A stretch of 20,343 nucleotides of DNA. Source: Gracilariopsis chorda (taxonomy: Eukaryota; Rhodophyta; Florideophyceae; Gracilariales; Gracilariaceae). Where the stretch lies: the NCBI GenBank assembly GCA_003194525.1, contig NBIV01000594.1:1-20343 (forward strand), read 5' to 3'. A program made the position numbers and the translations under genes. Shown here piece by piece: positions 9,710 to 20,343 of the stretch. Numbering within the stretch: position 1 is the stretch's first letter; the number at the start of each line of letters is the position of its first letter. The notes under the pieces were generated by a model. That model did not search any database and was not told the DNA's origin. It saw only the letters and a program-made list of their open reading frames with translations.

Positions 9710-10240
9710 GGAGTGCTTCATGAGCGCGGGGCGGGAGGTGGCGGCGTCAGTATATGTGGGGATGTACACGCAAAGGCCTGCAGTACGCTCGCACTTCCGG
9801 TAGGGTGTTGCATTGGTCTGACTGACGGGGGAGGCACCATGGACACGCGGTTTGTCGACACAATATCCTGAAGGCCGTCTCGTTCTATCGTAACCATATG
9901 GCCAGTGGACTTGATTACGCTTTATGGTCCGGTGGAACGAGGTATCAACTTGGCCGCAATGTGCTCAGCCTTGTGTTTTTCTTTGGTTCGTCGGTCCAAA
10001 TAGACATCGTCGGTGTTCTTGGAATGCTAGATAGAGGCGCTAGATCGCAAGTTTCTTAGGCAAAAGCTCAAAAATTACTACGAAAATGATAGATTCTGCT
10101 AGTTTCTGGCGCTTCCCAAGTAAAAAGAATTTTTTTTTGGAATTCACACTTCCATATCTTACAGAGCCTTGCCTCACCTGCACTGCGCATCGCTAGTTTC
10201 AAGTTTGGAGCAAGTTCATTCTCCACTAAAAGCTAGATAC
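9710..10240. other. intergenic, no supported gene
   Basis: GC-rich to about 9850 and then AT-rich, with a poly(T) run at 10130. No consistent coding frame, RNA gene or element boundary is evident. Confidence 0.35.
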
Positions 10241-10244
10241 AGAT

Positions 10245-10287
10245 CTCAAAATGGCGCTGGCCACGCAGCGGCCAGCGCCATTTCGAG
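10245..10287. repeat. strong hairpin, 14-bp perfect arms
   Basis: AAATGGCGCTGGCC (10249-10262) and GGCCAGCGCCATTT (10270-10283) are perfect reverse complements around a seven-base loop. With one mismatch the stem extends outward to CTC/GAG. It lies about 200 bases beyond the 3' end of the coiled-coil gene. It could be a transcription-end structure, a small RNA hairpin or a foldback repeat. Confidence 0.7.
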
Positions 10288-10308
10288 CACCCAACCAACA
10301 CTAACATT

Positions 10309-10314
10309 TTTATT
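10309..10314 (-). terminator. candidate poly(A) signal for the coiled-coil gene
   Basis: TTTATT on the plus strand reads AATAAA on the minus strand, 172 bases past the stop of the 10486-11016 gene. Confidence 0.35.
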
Positions 10315-10485
10315 TCCATCTTTTGAATTTCAAACTTCATACTGCCCTAGTTTGACTTCCAACTCGTCCTCAGGAACTCATCTGGGTAGCTCTCTTTGTT
10401 CTCACACACCCGACACACCGCGCATCAGATTCCAATACCACCCATTCCGTCGTCCTAACAGCCTCAACGACACTCCTAAACATCA

Positions 10486-11016
10486 CTAGCCTTCTTCTCC
10501 CTCTTCCCTCTTTCCATGCCTCCTCTTAAACTGACTCTTAATCTCCAATCCTTCTTCTTCATTCTCCTCCAACCTCCTTTTCGCGCCCCCTCTACCTCCA
10601 GGAGTAACCGGAGACCCACTCCCGACAGCACCTCCGACCCCCCCTTCCCCTCCACCTCCATACATCTTGTTCTGCATATCCTCGACTAGATGCACAGCCC
10701 TGTCCACCAGTAAAAGTCGCTTTTCCAGCTCCAAAATCCGTCCTCGCAACTCCTCATTCTCCTTCCACAGCCTCCCCAGATCCTCTCCCACACACGCCAC
10801 AACCCCATCGACGTGCTGCTCTGCCCACACTCCAGCCTCCCTCACCCTCCGGCGCAACTCAGCCACAGCGCCCATCCGCACTCCTTCCTCCGACGCACTC
10901 AGAACCATCCCTTCCAACTCCACGACAACCTCCTCAATACACTCATCCAAACGCTCCTTAAGCCCTCCCCCAGCGCTCCTCAATAGTTCCTTCACATCGT
11001 GGTAGAACCCATCCAT
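10486..11016 (-). CDS. hypothetical 176-aa coiled-coil protein
   Basis: An ATG at 11014-11016 opens a frame to TAG at 10486. Residues 1-115 are almost wholly helical and charged, with leucine heptads strongest in LWKENEELRGRILELEKRLL (about 83-102), so a dimerising coiled coil is expected. Residues 118-145 are a Gly-rich linker (MYGGGGEGG, GSPVTPGGRGG). The C-terminus alternates KRR and EE clusters (AKRRLEENEEEG, FKRRHGKREEGEEG) and could hold a nuclear localisation signal. No enzyme motif is present. It lies on the same strand as, and about 810 bases downstream of, the ParB/dioxygenase gene. The family is not recognised; a nuclear structural or DNA-associated partner is possible but unproven. 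Confidence 0.6.
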   Translation of the reverse strand: MDGFYHDVKELLRSAGGGLKERLDECIEEVVVELEGMVLSASEEGVRMGAVAELRRRVREAGVWAEQHVDGVVACVGEDLGRLWKENEELRGRILELEKRLLLVDRAVHLVEDMQNKMYGGGGEGGVGGAVGSGSPVTPGGRGGAKRRLEENEEEGLEIKSQFKRRHGKREEGEEG

Positions 11017-11177
11017 TCGTCTCCCTCAACTTCCCCCTACCCCTCCTCCTCGACCACCCTCGCCCGCACCTCCCTCCCCACCATCCCCTCCCATCATCGT
11101 CCCAACCCCAAGCTCACTGACCGAAAATTGCAAATAGTAGTCATGGTGCGTGTGGATGTTCTCAAATGACATGAATC

Positions 11178-11241
11178 TTCAAGAGTCGTGAATGAATGTT
11201 CAAGAGTCGTGAATGAATTTTCAAAAATCGATAATGAATGT
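11178..11241. repeat. three 21-bp tandem units
   Basis: TTCAAGAGTCGTGAATGAATG starts at 11178 and 11199, and a diverged unit (TTCAAAAATCGATAATGAATG) at 11220, an exact 21-base period. It lies 160 bases upstream of the coiled-coil gene start, so it could hold promoter elements. In one minus frame it reads as a FTTLExS heptapeptide, but that frame has no ATG. Confidence 0.7.
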
Positions 11242-11289
11242 CCCACCTCTTCACTTGAACCAACTTCGTCACTGCTTAAATGCACAGTT

Positions 11290-11825
11290 TATCATATTCT
11301 CATTTGCTCACCCCTTGTCCTTCCCAAAACACAAAACAATATTTGGAACCTCTACACGATAATGCTTTCACCCTCTTCACTCTTCTTCATACATCAAGCA
11401 CGCCACAATGCATTCATGTATGAAAAGAACCAGTACTTTCTATATCAACAGAATGGACAATCGCGGTATTTGGCTATAACAACGGGATCCTTCACATCCG
11501 TACAATCACCTTCAATTCTCATACATAATCCCATACTCAATTTTACATCCATTCGTGTGTCATAAGAGCTGCCCCTTCATTCTCCCCTCCAATACACCCA
11601 TCCCAAGTTTCTTCTCATACTTGCAGAACTTTCTTTATTGAATATAACAAAGCGAAATCTTTGTAGACATCATCCCTTCATTATTACCCATCATTCGAAT
11701 GAAGCCGCATAAAAAGTAATCCCCATCGTAGTAAACCTCTCCCATTCACTATAAACATTCACTATAAAGATCAAAAAGCAATCATCAGATTTAACAAACG
11801 TATATCACTAGTTTACTTATCATTA
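11290..11825. other. AT-rich intergenic region
   Basis: No gene is supported; the 125-codon plus frame across 11188-11565 shows no coding character. Visible items: a minus-strand AATAAA (11634-11639), about 190 bases past the stop of the dioxygenase gene, and a short TTCACTATAAA direct repeat at 11745-11768. Confidence 0.4.
11634..11639 (-). terminator. candidate poly(A) signal of the ParB/dioxygenase gene
   Basis: TTTATT on the plus strand gives AATAAA on the minus strand, downstream of the stop at 11826. Confidence 0.3.
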
Positions 11826-12224
11826 TCAATCGCTTTCATCGTCCTCACCTATCATACCCTCTGCTACTTTAGGAACGATTTCACCCTCATCGTCATCCTC
11901 CTGTTCATAATCTCCATCAGTGTTCATTTCCGCTGGTTTCAGTATATCCTCATCGTCCTCCTCATCCGACGGGTTCTCACCTTCGGCTTCTTGCATAACT
12001 ACATCTCTATCGTCAGCTTCATCTCCCCGCTCCTCTTCCCCTCCTCCCACCTCACATAAATCGCCACGGTCCTCTTCATAATTAAAAAAGGGAGGGCGGA
12101 AACCGCTTTGCCTATGCACCGCATCCGGGAGATTGTATCCCTCAGGTACAAAGTACATAATGTATCGCATGCAATAGCCTTTCGCTATTGCATCAATGTA
12201 GCCAGGCCCAGCATGAAATACATC
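11826..12224 (-). CDS. distal half of oxygenase core and acidic tail
   Basis: Directly after the TAG at 12225 and in the same frame, DVFHAGPGYIDAIAKGYCMR gives the distal iron-binding His (codon 12213-12215) and, after CM, an Arg (12165-12167) followed by YIMYFVPEG. D-x-x-HAG...R is the usual second half of this oxygenase core, where the Arg holds the 2-oxoglutarate carboxylate. This makes readthrough, editing or recent mutation of the TAG likely. Downstream is a strongly acidic tail (EEEDDEDILKP-like, EQEDDDEGEIV) ending at TGA/TAA near 11826. On its own the ATG at 12168-12170 would give a 114-aa product without a complete domain. Confidence 0.55.
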   Translation of the reverse strand, partial: DVFHAGPGYIDAIAKGYCMRYIMYFVPEGYNLPDAVHRQSGFRPPFFNYEEDRGDLCEVGGGEEERGDEADDRDVVMQEAEGENPSDEEDDEDILKPAEMNTDGDYEQEDDDEGEIVPKVAEGMIGEDDESD

Positions 12225-13758
12225 CTATCTTCCAATGAACACAGAAAATGGTGGAATTCTGAACTTCTGAACCATCATAGAAGCCGAAAGCTCTTTCAAG
12301 TTACCCCGTGTCATTGTCAGAGTATGTGACCGTTCACAAACCCAAATCATGAACGCATCCGGTGCCGATGCCATTTCAAAATACCCCGGGTTCACATTTC
12401 TCATCCTGTCATTCTCCGTCAAAACCCTGAAATCCGTGTGTAGCACCTGCCTCGGACAATACCCTCCAGTACAAAGGATACGGCCACCCGCGTGAGGGGC
12501 ATACATCGTTCCACCTTCAGACAACCCGAGATCCGCTGCAATCTGACCGAGCTTTGCATCCAACATGGCTCTCGTTCGAGCAAGAACCGCACCGTTTTCA
12601 AGCTCCTCAATTCTGTCTTCAATCCCTCGTTTGGTTGTGATGAAACGCTTCACCGCCTTGATACCATTCTTAACATCCTTAACCCCTCCTCCATTGATGA
12701 TCATATTCCAGAAAACACGATTCGCTTCGTTCGTGAGATCCGGTTGCGAAACAAAGTCGCGTTCGAAGAATTCCATCAGTTCTCCTATCACATCTTCGTC
12801 CATTTGCAGTCCCCTCGTCGAAGCCTCACTCGCCATGCCTTCATCTGTCCCAAAATTCTCCAGCACACAAAACCCACTCTCCGACAGCTCCACTCTCTTC
12901 TTCCCAAAGTAAACACGAGCCGAGTCCTCTCTCTCAAAAGCAGCCATCCATAACTCTTCCTCTTCATTTGATGCCGTTCCTGATGACGGCATCTTCACGC
13001 CCAGCACTGCACGTGTCGTAGTACCCATCTCTTTGTGCATGTTGCGAGACGCACGCCAGTACACAGCATGATGAACCATTTGGAAGTCATCAGGTGATAG
13101 GCACTCCGCCCGATGGTGCTTCCTCAGTTTTATCCTCTGCATCCATGGATGGGAATACTTCACTGCATTTCCGTTTGCAGGCCACTCACTCGGCAACGAG
13201 TATACCAGGTCCACCCAAGACATGTCCGCTCCCATAGCCAGCTCTCCTGGCGTAATTAAGCCAGCTGGAAGCTTGTCAGGATTCTTATCGTCAAAGCTGC
13301 CTGCGGTTTGCTGCTCCTCTGCCTCGTCTTCCTCATCATCCACAAAGTCCTCCTGAGCTTCATCCTCGCTTGACTCGAGCACAATGATCTCTTGTGCTGT
13401 CAACCACCTCTTCAAATCTCTCCTTTCCATAATACGCAGCCAATCCACCACCTCCTGCGAGATACCAAAGCCAGGTCGCTTCACACCAGGTGCAGTCGGC
13501 TTACGATTCGATCGTCTCTGCCTCTTCACCGGTGGCTCAAAATCAACTGACTCTTCATCTTCATCTTCGTCCAGGACCTCCACTTTACGCTTCCTTGATA
13601 CTTGCTTACTTCTTCGAGGCTCCTGGTCAGGGTTTGGAGGCTCCTGAGCAGCTTCCTCAGACCAAGCAACTCGATCACGTCCACATCGGCCGCAGAGGGA
13701 GCAGCAGCAGTAGCCTCCTGTCCCTGCATGTCCGACAAAGCGCTGGACAACGTCCTAC
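12225..13758 (-). CDS. NLS-rich linker and 2OG-Fe(II) dioxygenase-like domain, N-terminal part
   Basis: This frame is open from 13758 but has no ATG before residues deep inside it, so it must continue from the ParB exon by frameshift or unseen splicing. It starts with a bipartite NLS-like stretch (SRKRKVEVLDEDEDEE, VKRQRRSNRK). Then EVVDWLRIMERRDLKRWLTA, an acidic linker, and from about 12550 a domain with RQVLHTDF (HxD: His codon 12438-12440, Asp 12432-12434), PGYFEMASAPDAFMIWVCERSH, and FRIPPFSVFIGR. HxD is the Fe(II)-binding pair of double-stranded beta-helix dioxygenases, and the WVCERSH strand matches the place where related oxygenases have a GSH/ERSH turn. The frame ends at TAG, just before the distal His. 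Confidence 0.6.
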
Positions 13759-15358
13759 GAACCTCTTTCACCTTATTACTCACTCTGGACTCCAGTGAAC
13801 TGCGTTTCCCTTTCATATACCACTTCCCCAGACGAGATATGATATACTTTGACACAGTCCGGGCAGAATCGCCGATGGTAACTGTGGTATTCATCACTTC
13901 CTGTGCATGCTTTTTCTCCTTCAGGGAACTCCCCAGCTCACTGCAAATGTCATACGTTTTAGAAGTGCAGTCGAAGAAGTACTTTCGGAAATCCTCAAAC
14001 GGCCCCGTCTTCACAGTGGCCGCCGACCTCACTCGAACATGCGCCTGTAGACATTGGATAGTAAAACGAAACTTATCCCCTGACATTCCAAGCAGAATAT
14101 CACTAGACATATGAGTGATTCCACTTTGAGGCGTCTCCTGCCACACCACATCGAAGAACTCTAACAGACCGGGATTACGAGCAAACTTCAGAGCAAGAGC
14201 AGAATGGCGATTGAAATGACGTATCTTCCCTTCTTTCCCCTTCGTCTCACTGCTCCACAACACCCCCGTGATTTGGCTTGGTTTAAGCTTCGACAACTCA
14301 TACCCATCCTGCTCTACGCCATTACGAATAAACGAAACAGCAGTGTGAATCTTATCTGCGAAGGACATCACCAGAACATTGGAGCTCAAATCATTCAACG
14401 TATTCCCCAGCCACAACACCTCATTCAATGTCATTCTCCGGCCGTCGTTCCGTTCCCAAAGCGTGACGTTCAAACCAGCAGTAATCCGTGCCCATCTCGC
14501 ACCATCCAGCTCGAGGTCCAGTAGAACACTCACTCGACGGAAGCCGTCCACCAAAACCACAGGAACAATCAAACGCCCACTCGCATCAATAGCGTCACGA
14601 ACCGGCACATCCTCCAACAGGGCCACCGCAATCGACCCAAGAGAAGGGAGCCATCCGAATTTCCTCATTTTGTTCGAAGTATCCCGAAGATGTTTGTCAT
14701 TCCTCGAACGAACCATGTTCTTCGGAAATCGAATGTTGTGGGTATCGATTACGCAATTGTGCTGGTCATAATCATCTCGATTGATGTCTAAGACCCTAAA
14801 ACTGTTATCCACCTCTTCCGAAGGAACAGCATCTCCGTCATCATATAAAACCCTCTCCTCCGGATCAAGATCGTTCCTGGAGAGTACAGCCACCTCTATG
14901 ACGTCATCATGGGAGCTTGCTCCGACTTCAGGGCCTCCTCGGTTTCCAGAGCCGCCCGCGAGAGCACCTAATGTTCCTCCACCGCTCCGACGGGTTTTCA
15001 CCGGAGCCTCTCCACCGCTCTGAAGGCTGTTCACAGGCGCTTTGGTCACAAAAAAGCTTGATGGTGTACCAGCAACAGCGGGAAGGCGCTTGACTTGTCT
15101 TGCAGTGGTCCTGGAAGCTGTACTTCTGTGGACAGTATTCACATTTGCTCCTGACTGCGGTGGAACCGACTCAATCCCCTCTTCGCCTTCATTTTTGACA
15201 CTCATCATCGCAGTGTCCAGTGCATATAAACCCGCTGAAACCATCTCCTTCAAAGTTGCGGGCGGTTCGTCGGGACCCCCAAAAACATAAGGGTACTTCT
15301 CATCTTGGCGTGACGAAGTATTTGCCTTAGAGATAACCACCAAGTCCTCTCCAGGTCT
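13526..15358 (-). CDS. ParB/Spo0J-like domain exon
   Basis: About 610 codons with no internal stop. A Ser/Gly-rich disordered first third (to about 14900) is followed by a ParB-like region: FPKNMVRSRNDKHL, a GWLP turn, IVPVVLVDGFRR (DGxRR at 14535-14551, the family's nucleotide/phosphate-contact signature), WARITAGLNV and later SSNVLVMSFADKIHTAVSFI, which sits where ParB proteins carry the helix after the core. A helical C-terminal domain follows. The ParB/sulfiredoxin-like fold binds CTP in segregation proteins and acts as nuclease or DNA-binding module in other contexts; which applies here is unknown. This frame remains protein-like up to LEEVSK (about 13605), then terminates out of frame at 13526. 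Confidence 0.7.
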   Translation of the reverse strand, partial: RPGEDLVVISKANTSSRQDEKYPYVFGGPDEPPATLKEMVSAGLYALDTAMMSVKNEGEEGIESVPPQSGANVNTVHRSTASRTTARQVKRLPAVAGTPSSFFVTKAPVNSLQSGGEAPVKTRRSGGGTLGALAGGSGNRGGPEVGASSHDDVIEVAVLSRNDLDPEERVLYDDGDAVPSEEVDNSFRVLDINRDDYDQHNCVIDTHNIRFPKNMVRSRNDKHLRDTSNKMRKFGWLPSLGSIAVALLEDVPVRDAIDASGRLIVPVVLVDGFRRVSVLLDLELDGARWARITAGLNVTLWERNDGRRMTLNEVLWLGNTLNDLSSNVLVMSFADKIHTAVSFIRNGVEQDGYELSKLKPSQITGVLWSSETKGKEGKIRHFNRHSALALKFARNPGLLEFFDVVWQETPQSGITHMSSDILLGMSGDKFRFTIQCLQAHVRVRSAATVKTGPFEDFRKYFFDCTSKTYDICSELGSSLKEKKHAQEVMNTTVTIGDSARTVSKYIISRLGKWYMKGKRSSLESRVSNKVKEVRRTLSSALSDMQGQEATAAAPSAADVDVIELLGLRKLLRSLQTLTRSLEEVSKYQGSVKWRSWTKMKMKSQLILSHR

Positions 15359-15479
15359 CTGCGTAGAGGACAGGGTATGTTTGTGGACAGGGGGACAGGG
15401 TATGTTTGTGTAGAGAACGACAGAGTCTCGTCCCCGGCCCCCCAGCAACCCCCGCACCGCGCAATTTTGCCTCTCCTAC
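15359..15479 (-). other. 121-base GT-AG intron
   Basis: Minus-strand donor AAG|GTAGGAG at 15480/15479 and acceptor CTACGCAG|AGAC at 15359/15358. Removal joins two protein-like frames in phase 0 (DANVK to RPGEDL). The pyrimidine-rich 3' part holds an 18-base perfect direct repeat (CACAAACATACCCTGTCC; plus coordinates 15368-15385 and 15393-15410), placed just before the acceptor. Confidence 0.65.
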
Positions 15480-15480
15480 C

Positions 15481-15767
15481 TTCACGTTTGCATCAACACT
15501 CCCAACTCGTACGAACAGATTGACCTCCGCATCGCCCTTAAGCACCTGAGCCGTATTGCCCCCAATTGATCACTCAGAGTGGCTGGCAGTTCGGGTGGCG
15601 CCCCAGCTCTTCGCTTTGCCTCGCGTTGTCGGCATGTGGATAACACGTCTCTCCGGCGAAACAGGCTTCGTCGGAGTCCGTTTCCGTGATGGCGCGTTTA
15701 TCTTCTTCCCAGTGGAATCCATGGCTGAGTACTTCAAAGGTCGCGCTTGCGTTTTCTTGGCACCCAC
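15481..15767 (-). CDS. 5' exon(s) of the ParB/dioxygenase gene, with in-frame TGA
   Basis: The frame gives a Lys/Arg-rich, probably disordered segment (TGKKINAPSRKRTPTKP, TTRGKAKSWGATRTASHSE). It meets TGA at 15572-15570, then goes on in the same frame with SIGGNTAQVLKGDAEVNLFV to the splice donor. The in-frame ATGs are near 15722 and 15632; upstream codons are also open. CGA in place of TGA would give a single exon. The opposite strand is also open here (15556-15822), so the strand choice rests on continuity with the strong downstream exons. Start uncertain. Confidence 0.45.
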
Positions 15768-16126
15768 TGACGTCGAATGTTCCCGTGATCACATATGCTT
15801 GGTTCCAAAGACATGGACGTAAGCACTATGTATCATTTTCAAGACGTTTCATGACATCCATTGTCGTCAACGTAGCATCCCTGCAATTCCCCTCCCAATT
15901 ACTTGCATTGCAAAAAGAATTTGATAATATTTTGGTCGAGGTCTATGGTCCGAGGTGTCATGGTGCTCCATCGCGAACACGATGGAGCGCCAGGACGCGA
16001 AATTTTAATTAAAATTCATGCCTGGCGCTCCCTCGTGTTCGCGATGGAGCACCATGACACCTCGGACCACGGTCCTCGACCCAAAACGAAGAGAAACATA
16101 ATCAGAAGGAAACTGGTTCATTCAAG
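15768..16126. promoter_or_regulatory. divergent spacer between the two large genes
   Basis: About 360 bases separate the 5' end of the minus-strand ParB/dioxygenase gene from the ATG at 16127 of the plus-strand methyltransferase-SET gene. A shared bidirectional promoter is the simplest reading. Its right half is taken up by a large palindrome. A plus-strand frame (ending in the palindrome at about 16010) is open across it, but no strong coding evidence was found. Confidence 0.45.
15930..16087. repeat. 158-bp near-perfect palindrome
   Basis: Left arm 15947-15994 and right arm 16021-16068 match as reverse complements at 47 of 48 positions (one T/G difference). Weaker symmetry extends outward to TTTGGTCGAGG (15931) and CCTCGACCCAAA (16074-16084). 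The 26-base centre contains AATTTTAATTAAAATT (16001-16016), itself a perfect palindrome. It could extrude as a cruciform, fold in RNA, or be a foldback/MITE insertion; no clear target-site duplication was seen. Confidence 0.9.
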
Positions 16127-16663
16127 ATGCACGGAACTGGAGAAGAGCTTATTGATGCTTATCTTGCAGTTCGTGATGACTACGCAGCGACGAGGCAAAA
16201 TTTGGATGAGCTGAGAAGTTTGAAGCACACCGACTTTGTGGAGTTCGCGGTACAAAGTCGCAACGTTCATGACTCTGCCAAGAAAATGTTTCTCACTCTC
16301 ATCGGACCGGATTACATCTCGTATTTGGACTCCGAGCTCCGTAACATGTCTCTCAGAGGGCCTCCACGTCAACTCTACCTTATGGAATGAGTGGTGGACG
16401 TAAAGGACCGTGAAAAAGACAGGCGTGTAAGGGACTTTTGGAAGGTTTATTGTAAAAGGGAAGGGCTTTAAGGAATTCCCCGTAACGTGTTGCTATCTAT
16501 CTTTTGCAAGTCCAGTTTTCTGGAAGCAACCAAGAAATATTCCGCTTTCCACACGGATCCTTGCACCGACTCGGAAATAGTCATTGGGTTGTCTATGGTG
16601 CAACAGAATGCCGTGGATAAGAAAGGAAGTGGTAGGAAGAGGAAAAAGGGGCATGGCAGCTAA
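16127..16663 (+). CDS. N-terminal segment of the methyltransferase-SET gene
   Basis: From ATG 16127, 87 helical, charged codons (GTGEELIDAYLAVRDDYAAT, SAKKMFLTLIGPDYISYLDS) lead to TGA at 16388. The same frame continues with VVDVKDREKDRRVRDFWKVY to TAA at 16469 and then GIPRNVLLSIFCKSSFLEA up to a basic KKGSGRKRKKGHGS ending at TAA 16661. Just before this, the A5G4 run at 16642-16650 is a likely frameshift site, because the next frame carries on with AAKKFSKVSLSD. At both stops Arg or Gln would fit the local sequence. I do not recognise a domain here. Confidence 0.45.
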
Positions 16664-17696
16664 GAAGTTCTCGAAAGTGAGTTTGTCGGACAAAACCCAG
16701 AGTCAGAGAGTCGGGTATGATGTGCAGCTGGTGTCCAGGGCTTGGGATTGTTTCTCCCAATTCTTCGGGTTTCCCAACGTTGAGGTTATGATCTTGCCTT
16801 ACATTCGACTCAACTATATCAGTGTAGTCTTCACCGATATCGCACAACGCTCCATGGGCTTCCAACACAAAGATTGTTCCAAACAGTTTGTGGAGGAGAA
16901 GAACGTCACCACCGTAGAGGAAAACGATACCAAATGGGCATGGAATCTGCTGGACCCAGTGGATACAGCGCTTCGCCTTTGTGCCAAAGAATACCTTGGT
17001 GAGGTTTCTAATGTGGTGGTCCAAGAGAAACTGTTCGACATCTCTGCTCCCAGCAAATGGGATGCCCTCAAAAGGTTCATCATCACGAGAACGAGACTTT
17101 TCCCTCTGCGTTTTGAGAACTTTAGTGAAACTCTTTTCACTACGGTTCAAGAGGCCATAAAGCCTCTGGAGCTCATTGCAATGCATGGAAGCAATGTGAA
17201 AGTACATCAACCTGTGAAACCAGAGCCCGCAGAAGACATTGATATCATTATGGAGCCGGTAGAAACTGGTACGGCTGGTGGTGGGAGCGGACGTGCTGAG
17301 CGTGTGGAAGGTGTTGATCTGGGTGAGTTGGAAGAAGTGGAAGAGATAGAGATGGTAGAGGATGCCGAACGTGGTACTGCAGAACGTGGTACTGCACCAA
17401 AGGCCACTGAAGGACTGCAGACAACAGCTTTGTCGCAAAACTTATCGTATGATGTCAAAGGCACGGGGATTCGTGCACTACCGTACCCTACGACTTTGTA
17501 TGATGTGATAGCTTACAAGTATTTTGAGAAGGAGATGTCCCGCAACTTCCGTTTCCACAAGTGCAAGTCCGAAAATCTCATCGAAGTTGACGACAACAAG
17601 TGTGTCGAAAGCGAGGTATCTATTGAAGGAAGGGTACAGCTCCTGCTTTCCGATCCTCCATATGGGACTCGTTCTGAGCGTCGTTTGGAGAACAGC
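16608..17696 (+). CDS. methyltransferase, N-terminal half to DPPY
   Basis: An open frame with ATGs at 16608 and 16653. The first 200 residues are unrecognised, mixed alpha/beta in character (VGYDVQLVSRAWDCFSQFFG, VEVMILPYIRLNYISVVF). An acidic low-complexity linker follows (GELEEVEEIEMVEDAE with an AERGT duplication), then GTGIRALPYPTTLYDVIAYKYF and finally VQLLLSDPPYGTRSERR. D-P-P-Y is the catalytic motif IV that contacts the target amino group of adenine or N4-cytosine. The frame meets TAA at 17697 only eleven codons after DPPY, inside what should be the loop before the LRPGG strand. Confidence 0.65.
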
Positions 17697-17699
17697 TAA

Positions 17700-18896
17700 C
17701 ACGATATTCTGACAGAGAACAGCATGAGCAGGTCAGCGAGGAGGTCTTCAAAGCTTCTACGTCCTGGTGGACATACTACACAGTTCTGCTCATGGGATCA
17801 GGTACCGTTGTGGCGGGATGTCCTACGGAAAGTTACCTACATGGATGAATCTGATACGATGTGTTACTCCTTTGTCGTCGACGAACAGCCCCTACATTTC
17901 GTACGGTCTTTAGGTAGTACGACGGGTAACGTTGGGAGAAGAAGTTGCCGGTTGCACCAGACGACAGAATACGCTGTACATGCTGTTCGTTTTGGAGTTC
18001 CTTATGCACAACAGCACCGGATGGTCAACTATGAGAACTTCAATTATGTTGCTTCACGATACCCAGCGTATCATGCAATCATGGATCAGGTGCTGCCGAT
18101 GTCAAATAGTGAGATGCTCATGTGGTCTGTGAAAAACCTGGATGGGAAATATACGAGGAAGAGGGTGCAACCGGAACAGAAGTGTAGGGCACTGTTGAAA
18201 GAGCTGATTTGCAGCTTTAGTCACCCAGGAGACGTCGTGGTCGACATGTTTGCCGGAACGTTCTCGACAGCGATGGCGTGCATGGAACTGCCCAAGCATC
18301 GGAAGATTGTGGGGTGTGAACTGGACAAAGCTTGCTTTGAACACGCCAGGCATGCCACTATTGTTCGCTTCGCTTCCATAATACGGGAAGGACATACGAA
18401 TATGGAGAAGAGCCAGGAGCTTCGAAAGATGGCTCATTGTGTTTCCTCTGCATTCCAAATGGGAAGAAGCAGGTACACCGTGTTATGGAGCGCTATCGAC
18501 AAATTTCCACCGTACCAAATTCTTCCCCCACACCTTGTCGACTTTCTCTCCACTTTGTGGGAAAGTGAAATTCTAGGGAAGTTGGGAAGGAAGAAAGCTT
18601 TGGATGGATGGCCGAGGGAGCTGCAGGGAAGATTGAATCTGGAGAACATCAAGTCTCTATTGGCAATGGAGGCTGTGCAATATGGGTGGCGAGTGGGCAA
18701 GTCTACTATTCGTCACGAAAAGGCTGGTGTTGGAGTGTTTGCAACTCGTCGAATTGCTGCAGGCGAGGTAGTGTGCTATTTCTACGGGAAGTTGGTTTAT
18801 CATGACCTTTCGAATCGGAAAGAAGTGCAAAAGACCTATGGGGACGGAGTCATGGGTGTGACGAAGGATCGCTTCCGCAGTATGCGGTGGAGATAA
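17700..18896 (+). CDS. methyltransferase C-terminal half and start of SET domain
   Basis: Same frame as the previous segment, right after TAA 17697. LLRPGGHTTQFCSWDQVPLW corresponds to the strand and turn after motif IV. The local codons 17710-17745 read better in another frame (EQHEQVSEEVFK), suggesting a pair of compensating indels. PEQKCRALLKELICSF and PGDVVVDMFAGTFSTAMACM (18243-18285) with VGCELD form the SAM-binding motifs X and I: acidic residue, F-x-G-T and a following ELD. The linker then leads into a SET N-terminus, GVGVFATRRIAAGEVVCYFY (about 18725-18785), matching GxGVxAxxxIxxGxxxxxYxG. The frame runs out at TAA 18894 within the SET domain. Confidence 0.65.
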   Translation, partial: HDILTENSMSRSARRSSKLLRPGGHTTQFCSWDQVPLWRDVLRKVTYMDESDTMCYSFVVDEQPLHFVRSLGSTTGNVGRRSCRLHQTTEYAVHAVRFGVPYAQQHRMVNYENFNYVASRYPAYHAIMDQVLPMSNSEMLMWSVKNLDGKYTRKRVQPEQKCRALLKELICSFSHPGDVVVDMFAGTFSTAMACMELPKHRKIVGCELDKACFEHARHATIVRFASIIREGHTNMEKSQELRKMAHCVSSAFQMGRSRYTVLWSAIDKFPPYQILPPHLVDFLSTLWESEILGKLGRKKALDGWPRELQGRLNLENIKSLLAMEAVQYGWRVGKSTIRHEKAGVGVFATRRIAAGEVVCYFYGKLVYHDLSNRKEVQKTYGDGVMGVTKDRFRSMRWR

Positions 18897-19291
18897 AAGT
18901 CTACGGTCAACAGTTCCAATCACTTCCGCATCGAAAACAGCTGACGAATTGGCATGGAAAACAAGCAAACCGCATTTTATGGGTGGTTTTTGCCCCTTTT
19001 TGTATTGCGGGGTATATCAACCATCCAAAATACGTGGAAGGGGATAAACAGTTAGAAGCCATGGTGGATGCCATGGTGGATGGCCTCGTGAAAAAAAGGG
19101 AGGCTAATGTGTGAATGAAACGGACACCGGGAGTGGGACGAACACCAGGGGGAATAACGGACTACAAACTTATTAAGATGGAGGCGACAGCCAACATAGA
19201 GCAAGGAGAGGAACTCTTCGCCAGATACGGTGATGTTTATGACTGGCAAACCCATTTGAATGTGGAGGATGGAACGATAGTCATTGATTAG
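18870..19291 (+). CDS. SET domain, C-terminal half
   Basis: A one-base frame change near 18875 brings in QYAVEIKVYGQQFQ, then FAPFCIAGYINHPKY (N-H at 19019-19024, the motif that helps form the SAM pocket and pseudoknot in SET proteins). TGA at 19112 interrupts, and the same frame resumes with KLIKMEATANIEQGEELFARYGDVYDW (GEEL-x-x-x-YG near 19205-19235), which is the classic last SET motif with its catalytic-region Tyr, ending at TAG 19289. An insertion between INH and GEEL is longer and more basic than in canonical SET domains, and no Cys-rich post-SET follows. Substrate cannot be predicted. Confidence 0.6.
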
Positions 19292-19584
19292 TTTGTTGTT
19301 ATAAACCTTTGTCCACAGCTTGGCTAAAGGGCGACGTTTATTATTTGAACGGATGTGTAGTCCTAACTTAGGGAACACACTTTTCAGTAAGGATAGAAGA
19401 TACAAAGCGATATAGATGTGACACAGAAACGTCCATTTTCGGTACCACGGAGGATTGTATTCTCAAGATTTCACAAAAAACAAAGATTTTTGTGCGCATT
19501 GGGTGGGGAGATTTTCCTGGACAACACACGGCATGCGCCATCCCAAGCGTCGCTAGCCACTTGCGCAAGAGATTGACTCCAAGA
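19292..19584. other. intergenic
   Basis: Spacer between the SET gene and the next plus-strand frame. No poly(A) hexamer of canonical form and no further gene is evident. Confidence 0.35.
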
Positions 19585-20343
19585 ATGGCGCCGAAGGGAA
19601 AGAAGCGAGGCCCGGCAAGGGTTAGTGCGGCGAGTGCGCCTAAGACGCGGCAAAAGGCTATTGAGGAGCGAACCGCGAGTGGAACGAAACCGAAATCATG
19701 TGTTCCCAGGAGCGGATTATCGAGGAGGAGGTCAGGAGAAGGTGCTTCGAAGAGAGGGGGAAGAGATGGGGCAAAGAACGTCGGATCCGAGCGCACGACG
19801 AGTGACAACTTGAAGGCTGATGCCCATGCGCATGTAGCACGTAGGAGAGATTCGGTTCGGGGACAGCGATCTATGCCTGGGTCGGTGGTGGGGTGGAGGG
19901 TAAGAAAGGGTCGGTTGCTAGGAGAAGAGAAGAGGTACCAGATCAGGGAGGGTTGGAAGCAAATGCGCCGGTCGAAGACCGAAATAAAGATGAAGAAATG
20001 CCGGAAAGGAAACAAATGGAAGAGCATTTGCGCTGAAGAAAGGGGGAGCCCCAAGGGGATATCAATATGGAGGAGAGGTAAATGTCCCTTTGGTAGAGAG
20101 TGATGGGGACGAAGAGGATCACAATGTGAAGGGGAGATGGAGGAGAGAGAGAATAAAGAAAAGAGTGGGACGCCCGCTCTGATTCAAAGGAAACGCGAGA
20201 AGTGGAAGAAATGGTCAGAGCGACGGATGGAATACAGGAAGCATCGAAAAGCGGAGAACGTACGGGCACCCCGGTACGGGCGCAAAAGGTGCAAATGGCT
20301 CAAGACTTGGAAAGTGAGAAAGGAAGCATAACGCCGCGGACTC
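19585..20343 (+). CDS. partial plus-strand gene with basic disordered N-terminus, frame broken
   Basis: An ATG in good context (AAGAATGGCG, 19585) starts APKGKKRGPARVSAASAPKT, a Lys/Arg/Ala-rich disordered tail. The protein-like signal shifts frame to the right: about 19945-20030 reads LEANAPVEDRNKDEEMPERK in another frame, 20090-20180 reads VPLVESDGDEEDHNVKGRW in a third placement, and 20166-20343 reads ETREVEEMVRATDGIQEASK and stays open to the window edge. No domain is visible. The tail is similar in style to the N-terminus of the ParB/dioxygenase gene, so a second copy of that family is possible, but there is no direct alignment evidence. Incomplete at the right edge. Confidence 0.3.

Follow-up and report, generated by a model that had tools for sequence, protein, structure and literature searches.

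The window analyzed here, the whole 20,343-bp contig C589 of the red alga Gracilariopsis chorda, contains a head-to-head pair of genes separated by a spacer with a large palindrome: one joins a ParB-like region to a putative Fe(II)/2-oxoglutarate (2OG) oxygenase (ParB-oxygenase), and the other joins a DNA methyltransferase (MTase) to a borderline SET domain (MTase-SET). This pair is the cargo, along with further genes, of a repeated Plavaka DNA transposon, one copy of which occupies the right half of the window. With a probability that we place slightly above one half (roughly 0.55), the family represents large cut-and-paste Plavaka-type transposons bearing a chromatin module that would set the element's own chromatin state, probably acting in anti-silencing.

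Results

A Repeated Plavaka Transposon Carries the Gene Pair

A search of the genome (91.3 Mb, 1081 contigs, eukaryotic judging by size and genes; all copy and linkage counts refer to this one genome and copy counts are lower bounds) yielded at least 106 scored matches to the MTase open reading frame (ORF), at least 85 to the ParB ORF and at least 96 to the oxygenase ORF (106 of 284, 69 of 345 and 93 of 219 candidates scored, respectively). Since the MTase has 106 scored matches, the pair is not a product of chance. Among the MTase rows at 80–90% identity (65, counted by eye), 54 carry a stop inside the match; in a second subfamily (~73–74%), referred to below as the young subfamily, many rows are stop-free, and ten of its copies share blocks of 98–99.9% identity with sharp ends.

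The terminal repeats are 23 bp long (CGTCGGTGTT...), and in the young subfamily the left and right repeats are identical except at one of the 23 positions. Five of five young-subfamily copies with both ends are flanked by matching 2-bp target duplications (CG, AG, TA, AC, TA), in keeping with Plavaka transposons, which have inverted terminal repeats and target duplications of 2–3 bp; for the remaining five of the ten copies, one or both ends lie outside the DNA compared. A Plavaka transposase (PF18759, 1.7e-21) is encoded in the right half of the element in contig C332, and 110 of the 114 Plavaka matches found genome-wide exceed the cut-off. With linkage defined as a distance within 9 kb, a Plavaka match lies downstream of 59 of the 106 MTase matches, convergently in 58 of these 59, and none is listed upstream within that distance among the 106. 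A nearly whole young element of ~18.3 kb, without approximately the first 210 bp and with its right end at position 18070, is present in contig C550, where the gene order is ParB-oxygenase (-), MTase-SET (+, frame broken), gene C (+) and Plavaka transposase (-). The window itself ends before the transposase gene and does not contain the domain.

A host gene pair was considered as well and is ruled out by the copy number and the element ends. A fragment of an endogenous giant virus or phage, as the phage-type methyltransferase described below might suggest, is largely ruled out by the terminal repeats, the target duplications and the Plavaka transposase, to the point where we assign it a nearly negligible probability; two viral-contig scans with few peptide patterns also confirmed no relative.

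Shortened copies of 7.4–8.0 kb (C144, C64, C37, C232 and C281a) have main blocks 99.2–99.7% identical to C144, which, compared with C550, is missing the bulk of the ParB-oxygenase gene, the N-terminal region of MTase-SET and some of the transposase gene, and which retains one palindrome.

Table 1. Features of the transposon copy in the window (positions in the 20,343-bp contig)
Feature	Position	Strand	Basis
Decayed Plavaka transposon copy, truncated at the contig end, ahead of the transposase gene and the right terminus	10008..20343		Left end aligned to ends of near-identical copies of the related subfamily
Left terminal repeat, CGTCGGTGTTCTTGGAATGCTAG	10008..10030	+	Alignment to related-subfamily copy ends
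Subterminal GCTAG sites, five of them within the first 229 bp	10026..10236		Spacing close to that of the young subfamily
Gene A, ORF of 176 aa, resembling a coiled coil by eye	10486..11016	-	Homologous to an ORF of C53 (69% over the matched part)
ParB-oxygenase gene, decayed, matching residues 64–1417 in 3 pieces	11829..15689	-	Intact 1417-aa ORF L035:453-4703:-
Putative Fe(II)/2OG oxygenase core; HTDF 12440, HAG 12215, stop 12225–12227	12087..12941	-	Motif mapping
ParB-like core; VLVDGFRR 14548	14381..14794	-	Mapping and profile comparison with phage ParB-type domains
Spacer between matched ends of the divergent genes	15690..16111		Match to intact relatives
Palindrome, 65-nt arms 92% complementary, centre TTAATTAA	15930..16085		156 bp, DNA fold z -19.8
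MTase-SET gene, decayed, matching residues 19–1060 in 3 pieces	16112..19288	+	Intact 1060-aa ORF L022:5082-8261:+
DNA amino-methyltransferase domain; DPPY 17652 before FAGT 18249	17634..18350	+	Pfam and motifs
SET domain, borderline, in two frames; GVGVFA 18726, YINH 19013, GEELFARYG 19205	18726..19231	+	Pfam (borderline) and motifs
Gene C start, matching residues 1–76 of the 775-aa C550 ORF, 47% identical	19585..19821	+	Rest unmatched or past the contig end

The Window Copy Is Decayed and Truncated

Both genes of the truncated window copy are broken. Matched to intact relatives, MTase-SET falls into three pieces in two frames with four in-frame stops and ParB-oxygenase into three pieces in two frames with two stops, one of them four codons ahead of the distal histidine of the metal triad. 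Introns as a cause of the broken frames were rejected, because the relatives carry single intact ORFs (MTase-SET, 1060 aa, in C332 and C53; ParB-oxygenase, 1417 aa, in C550). The pair described by a first-pass annotation of this DNA is real, and divergent as stated there, and its members are not intact. A close copy in C400, with a Plavaka match downstream, is 100% identical to the window in the MTase fragment and the palindrome, 95–99% in three ParB pieces and 66–69%, with stops, over two larger oxygenase stretches.

The Divergent Pair Recurs and Appears to Be Kept by Selection

A ParB/oxygenase piece is located upstream (within 9 kb) of 52 of the 106 MTase matches, on the opposite strand in 52 of 52, and MTase stands head-to-head with 52 of 89 ParB/oxygenase clusters; among the remaining 54 MTase matches and 37 clusters are deleted copies, fragments, contig ends and perhaps families too diverged to be matched by the other query. 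The divergent pair is also kept in C539 (45% and 40%), and a distant family represented by C125 (42% in the oxygenase) retains the gene order in pieces, with remnants of MTase-SET (325 codons aligned) and gene C (199).

Judging from codon comparisons, both genes appear to be kept by selection: against window-subfamily copies, dN/dS is well below 1, at 0.16–0.19 for MTase-SET (7 copies including the window) and 0.15–0.21 for ParB-oxygenase (8 copies including the window), these values being rough, with synonymous sites near saturation and old copies decayed; against C125 it is 0.26 for MTase-SET, 0.21 for gene C and 0.33 for Plavaka, ParB-oxygenase being not computable. The values bear on the notion that the genes are passengers without a joint role, retained solely through their linkage to an active transposon. 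Such an explanation would accommodate the amplification to near-identity of copies in which the ParB-oxygenase gene is mostly absent, as well as the loss of the ParB core in C125, but it fits poorly with dN/dS of 0.15–0.21, with the same gene order in a family 42% alike in the oxygenase and with a palindrome that persisted while both of its arms changed, so that we regard it as quite improbable.

In protein searches, P0001 (94%) emerged as a close relative, and P0002 and P0003 as distant ones, with 45% and 28% identity over 45% and 90% of the query, respectively. An alignment-based protein search gave no match and missed even P0002 and P0003, and is hence no evidence of absence; a single scan of prokaryote genomes with the ParB-oxygenase alignment, using few peptide patterns, confirmed no relative.

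Domain Composition of the Two Proteins

The motifs read in the first-pass annotation (DGFRR, HTDF and HAG on the reverse strand; DPPY, FAGT, INH and GEELFARYG on the forward strand) are all present (Table 1). In class-beta amino-methyltransferases the DPPY motif precedes FAGT; this order, together with a Pfam match to N6_N4_Mtase (7.9e-14 in the window ORF, 3.6e-18 in the intact relative), makes the assignment to class-beta DNA N6-adenine/N4-cytosine amino-methyltransferases firm at the level of sequence, and "writes DNA methylation," as suggested earlier, is well supported by family. The first-ranked phage match is M.PhiCh1-I. The enzyme is a phage-type DNA amino-methyltransferase, probably of the N6-adenine kind, as both its DPPY motif and its resemblance to an adenine methyltransferase favor N6-methyladenine (6mA), with N4-cytosine as the alternative. 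The SET domain is borderline: it gives 17.7 bits in the window ORF and, over the full domain length, 22.0 bits in the intact relative, i.e., a match that stays below the cut-off of 22.4. Methylation of a protein and oxidation of a modified target, also put forward in the first-pass annotation, would be activities predicted from the respective domains; its suggestion that a modified target is cut is unsupported, with no nuclease domain found.

In the intact ParB-oxygenase, H1223, D1225, H1298 and R1314 form the HxD...H metal triad with distal arginine of Fe(II)/2OG oxygenases and are invariant in four of four aligned relatives. The oxygenase assignment, drawn from these motifs, is putative, and the ParB assignment is suggested by profile comparison. 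Neither domain, although both had been named in the first-pass annotation, was recognized in sequence searches of Pfam, PHROGs, NCBIfam and PDB. For the oxygenase, the Tet_JBP model had no match among the oxygenase proteins, and PDB, PHROG and phage tblastn searches gave chance-level matches only; for ParB, PDB profile matches were at chance level (including sulfiredoxin at E 0.58), and phage and plasmid tblastn gave nothing useful. By hhalign, the ParB-like region scored 22.2 (P 3e-4, probability 17%) against six phage ParB-type proteins, compared with at most 9.6 for 100 column shuffles, 3.9 for the reversed alignment and 2.7 for the oxygenase alignment, and its first 150 columns scored 26.6 (P 5e-5, probability 40%), the alignments being shallow. 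M.PhiCh1-I, the only one of the six that was itself tested against ParB_N, combines a ParB_N-like region (23.7 bits, cut-off 26.3) with a methyltransferase in one protein, a fusion that may point to a partnership between the two proteins of the transposon.

Candidate Control Sites in the Element

The window spacer, put at roughly 360 bp in the first-pass annotation, measures ~420 bp between matched ends, which omit the first 63 residues of ParB-oxygenase and the first 18 of MTase-SET; in the C550 relative, the two ORF starts are 701 bp apart. Genome-wide, 40 full palindrome places were scored (of 109 candidates), and 40 of 40 are beside an MTase (36) or ParB (4) gene; the palindrome is repeated in C263 (three), C347 (two) and C2 (two). 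In the young subfamily it is 86 bp long, self-complementary at 86 of 86 positions in C550 and at 82 of 86 in a second C550 copy, with close matches in C53, C332 and C144. Comparison of the subfamilies over 38 aligned arm positions revealed 28 that are the same in all arms and 7 changed alike on both arms, whereas 3 are unpaired in the window; gene conversion between the arms could be an alternative cause of the both-arm changes. The palindrome is likely a control or docking site.

ParB recognizes parS, and by analogy one may guess that the ParB-like protein binds the palindrome. The boldest reading would be a self-addressed system, in which the ParB-like protein would recognize the palindrome in its own divergent promoter, anchor the oxygenase there and, with MTase-SET, write and erase a DNA and histone mark switching the element on and off. 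Such a system, tentative and on balance rather unlikely, would, if true, be a self-addressed writer and eraser aimed at a site found only on the element.

A second candidate site is the pentamer GCTAG, found five times in 700 bp of the window element and six times in that of C53, compared with 0.33 per kb in ~15 kb of flanking DNA. These sites suggest a different use of the same genes, namely a control of timing: the MTase would mark the element in such a way that cutting is confined to freshly replicated, hemimethylated ends, while a protein of the element would bind the GCTAG sites and the oxygenase would reset the mark. Dam/IS10 and the methylation-sensitive binding of TnpA in Spm are precedents. 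The presence of a DNA methyltransferase and of 5–6 GCTAG sites in the first 229 bp, with nearly the same spacing in two subfamilies, would agree with this, but the terminal 700 bp on the right side of C550 contain no GCTAG (one strand counted); we consider timing control unlikely. Near the left end of the window element there is also a GC-rich inverted repeat (10249–10283), and the young subfamily contains a stretch resembling it.

Other Genes and Repeats

No domain was found in gene A, and the 775-aa gene C ORF had no Pfam match. Approximately 1.5 kb of the young subfamily is without a match in the window element and holds a 243-aa membrane-like ORF (L036:1704-2432, -), for which there was no significant Pfam match. 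Left of the element, the window contains two tandem arrays, one at 266–522 (68-bp unit, 3.8 copies) and one at 1226–1486 (~4 copies of a 65-bp unit, the ends of which are themselves inverted repeats).

Discussion

Overall, the proposed chromatin module would work as follows: the MTase, and perhaps the SET domain as well, would write a mark on the element's DNA or on its histones; ParB-oxygenase, tethered to the element through its binding to DNA, would remove or oxidize a mark; the palindrome would provide the control or docking site; and the element would thereby escape silencing or time its own transposition. Anti-silencing is the role proposed for TET/JBP enzymes in fungal transposons in the part of PMC12730594 drawn on here.

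Several observations weigh against this proposal. More than half of the MTase matches (54 of 106) have no ParB/oxygenase piece within 9 kb, and five of those 54 were recognized as copies that carry internal deletions, retain both ends and nevertheless transposed, implying that ParB-oxygenase is dispensable in cis. The view of the first-pass annotation that the two genes form one module is borne out by the recurrence of the divergent pair in the same genome and by the gene order in C125, and is weakened by C125 itself, the sole copy of the distant family read, which has no ParB core. Neither ParB nor oxygenase is recognized by the libraries named above. The SET match is at threshold, and where the canonical SET motif is NHxCxPN, the window has YINHPKY and the young C332 element YINDPKY. 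Finally, a genome search for C5 methyltransferases, positive in 10 of 14 controls, gave no match (introns could hide one), making a classical 5-methylcytosine target doubtful.

Despite this negative result, CpG transitions in one set of old copies (L002–L008) amount to 62/436 vs. 94/1580 at other C/G sites (2.4-fold), and in a second set to 73/446 vs. 182/1439 (1.3-fold). Neither MT-A70 (controls silent) nor Tet_JBP (controls likewise silent, i.e., no positive control) was found in the genome. Searches for Chitin_synth_1N (controls silent) and IFT57 (3 of 14 controls positive, none above the cut-off) were negative as well. JBP and some phage enzymes make oxidized or hypermodified bases, and a protective hypermodification may also be considered, in which the oxygenase would produce such a base on MTase-marked DNA and shield the element from host nucleases or silencing. 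The linkage of the MTase and oxygenase genes and the phage-like character of the MTase would be in line with it, while no further modification enzyme is found among the ORFs searched, and Tet_JBP has no match in the genome in a search with no positive control; the probability of such a hypermodification appears low. As for the chromatin-module reading, 6mA in eukaryotes goes with permissive, H3K4me3-marked chromatin, as described for the 6mA of another enzyme family in the part of PMC12695648 drawn on here.

In the usual view, DNA methylation is directed at transposons, whereas this one appears to carry its own adenine-type MTase. If active, the module would represent a writer-eraser pair belonging to a parasite of eukaryotic genomes, a route for bacterial or phage methyltransferases into eukaryotes and a testable system for the effect of adenine methylation on transposition, with the palindrome as a specific test site.

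Comparison With Known Systems

TET/JBP and SET enzymes have been described in transposons before; the combination of MTase-SET and ParB-oxygenase genes may be new, as searches of open-licence PMC papers showed no transposon with both. Fungal DNA transposons, Plavaka among them, carry TET/JBP dioxygenases (Kojima 2025, PMC12730594), and, as far as the text drawn on here goes, they resemble the present elements in the Plavaka transposase, the element-borne dioxygenase gene and the 2-bp target duplications. The elements described here differ in that their oxygenase is not matched by Tet_JBP and is fused to a ParB-like domain (the word ParB is absent from the main text of that paper), in the additional MTase-SET gene and intergenic palindrome, and in their termini (CGTCGGTG..CACCGACG), which fit neither of the two types reported in that text (A, TGT..ACA; B, CATCA..TGATG) and perhaps point to a further Plavaka lineage. 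A SET gene is present in HarbingerS and MuDR elements of oomycetes, cited in the same source; these are likewise transposons with a SET domain, but of other transposase superfamilies and, in the passages concerned, with no DNA methyltransferase mentioned. In the Plavaka giant repeats of Amoebidium, the cargo is tyrosine recombinases, and the part of PMC11244446 drawn on here mentions neither MTase-SET nor ParB-oxygenase.

M.PhiCh1-I shares with the present system a DNA amino-methyltransferase with a ParB_N-like partner region, which in the phage forms one protein, whereas here the two parts reside in two divergent genes, each with a new fusion partner. The N4-cytosine methyltransferase of bdelloid rotifers is reportedly a host gene, in contrast to the transposon cargo described here. 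Both nevertheless represent bacterial-type amino-methyltransferases for eukaryotic DNA, judging from the part of the rotifer study drawn on here (PMC8885841).

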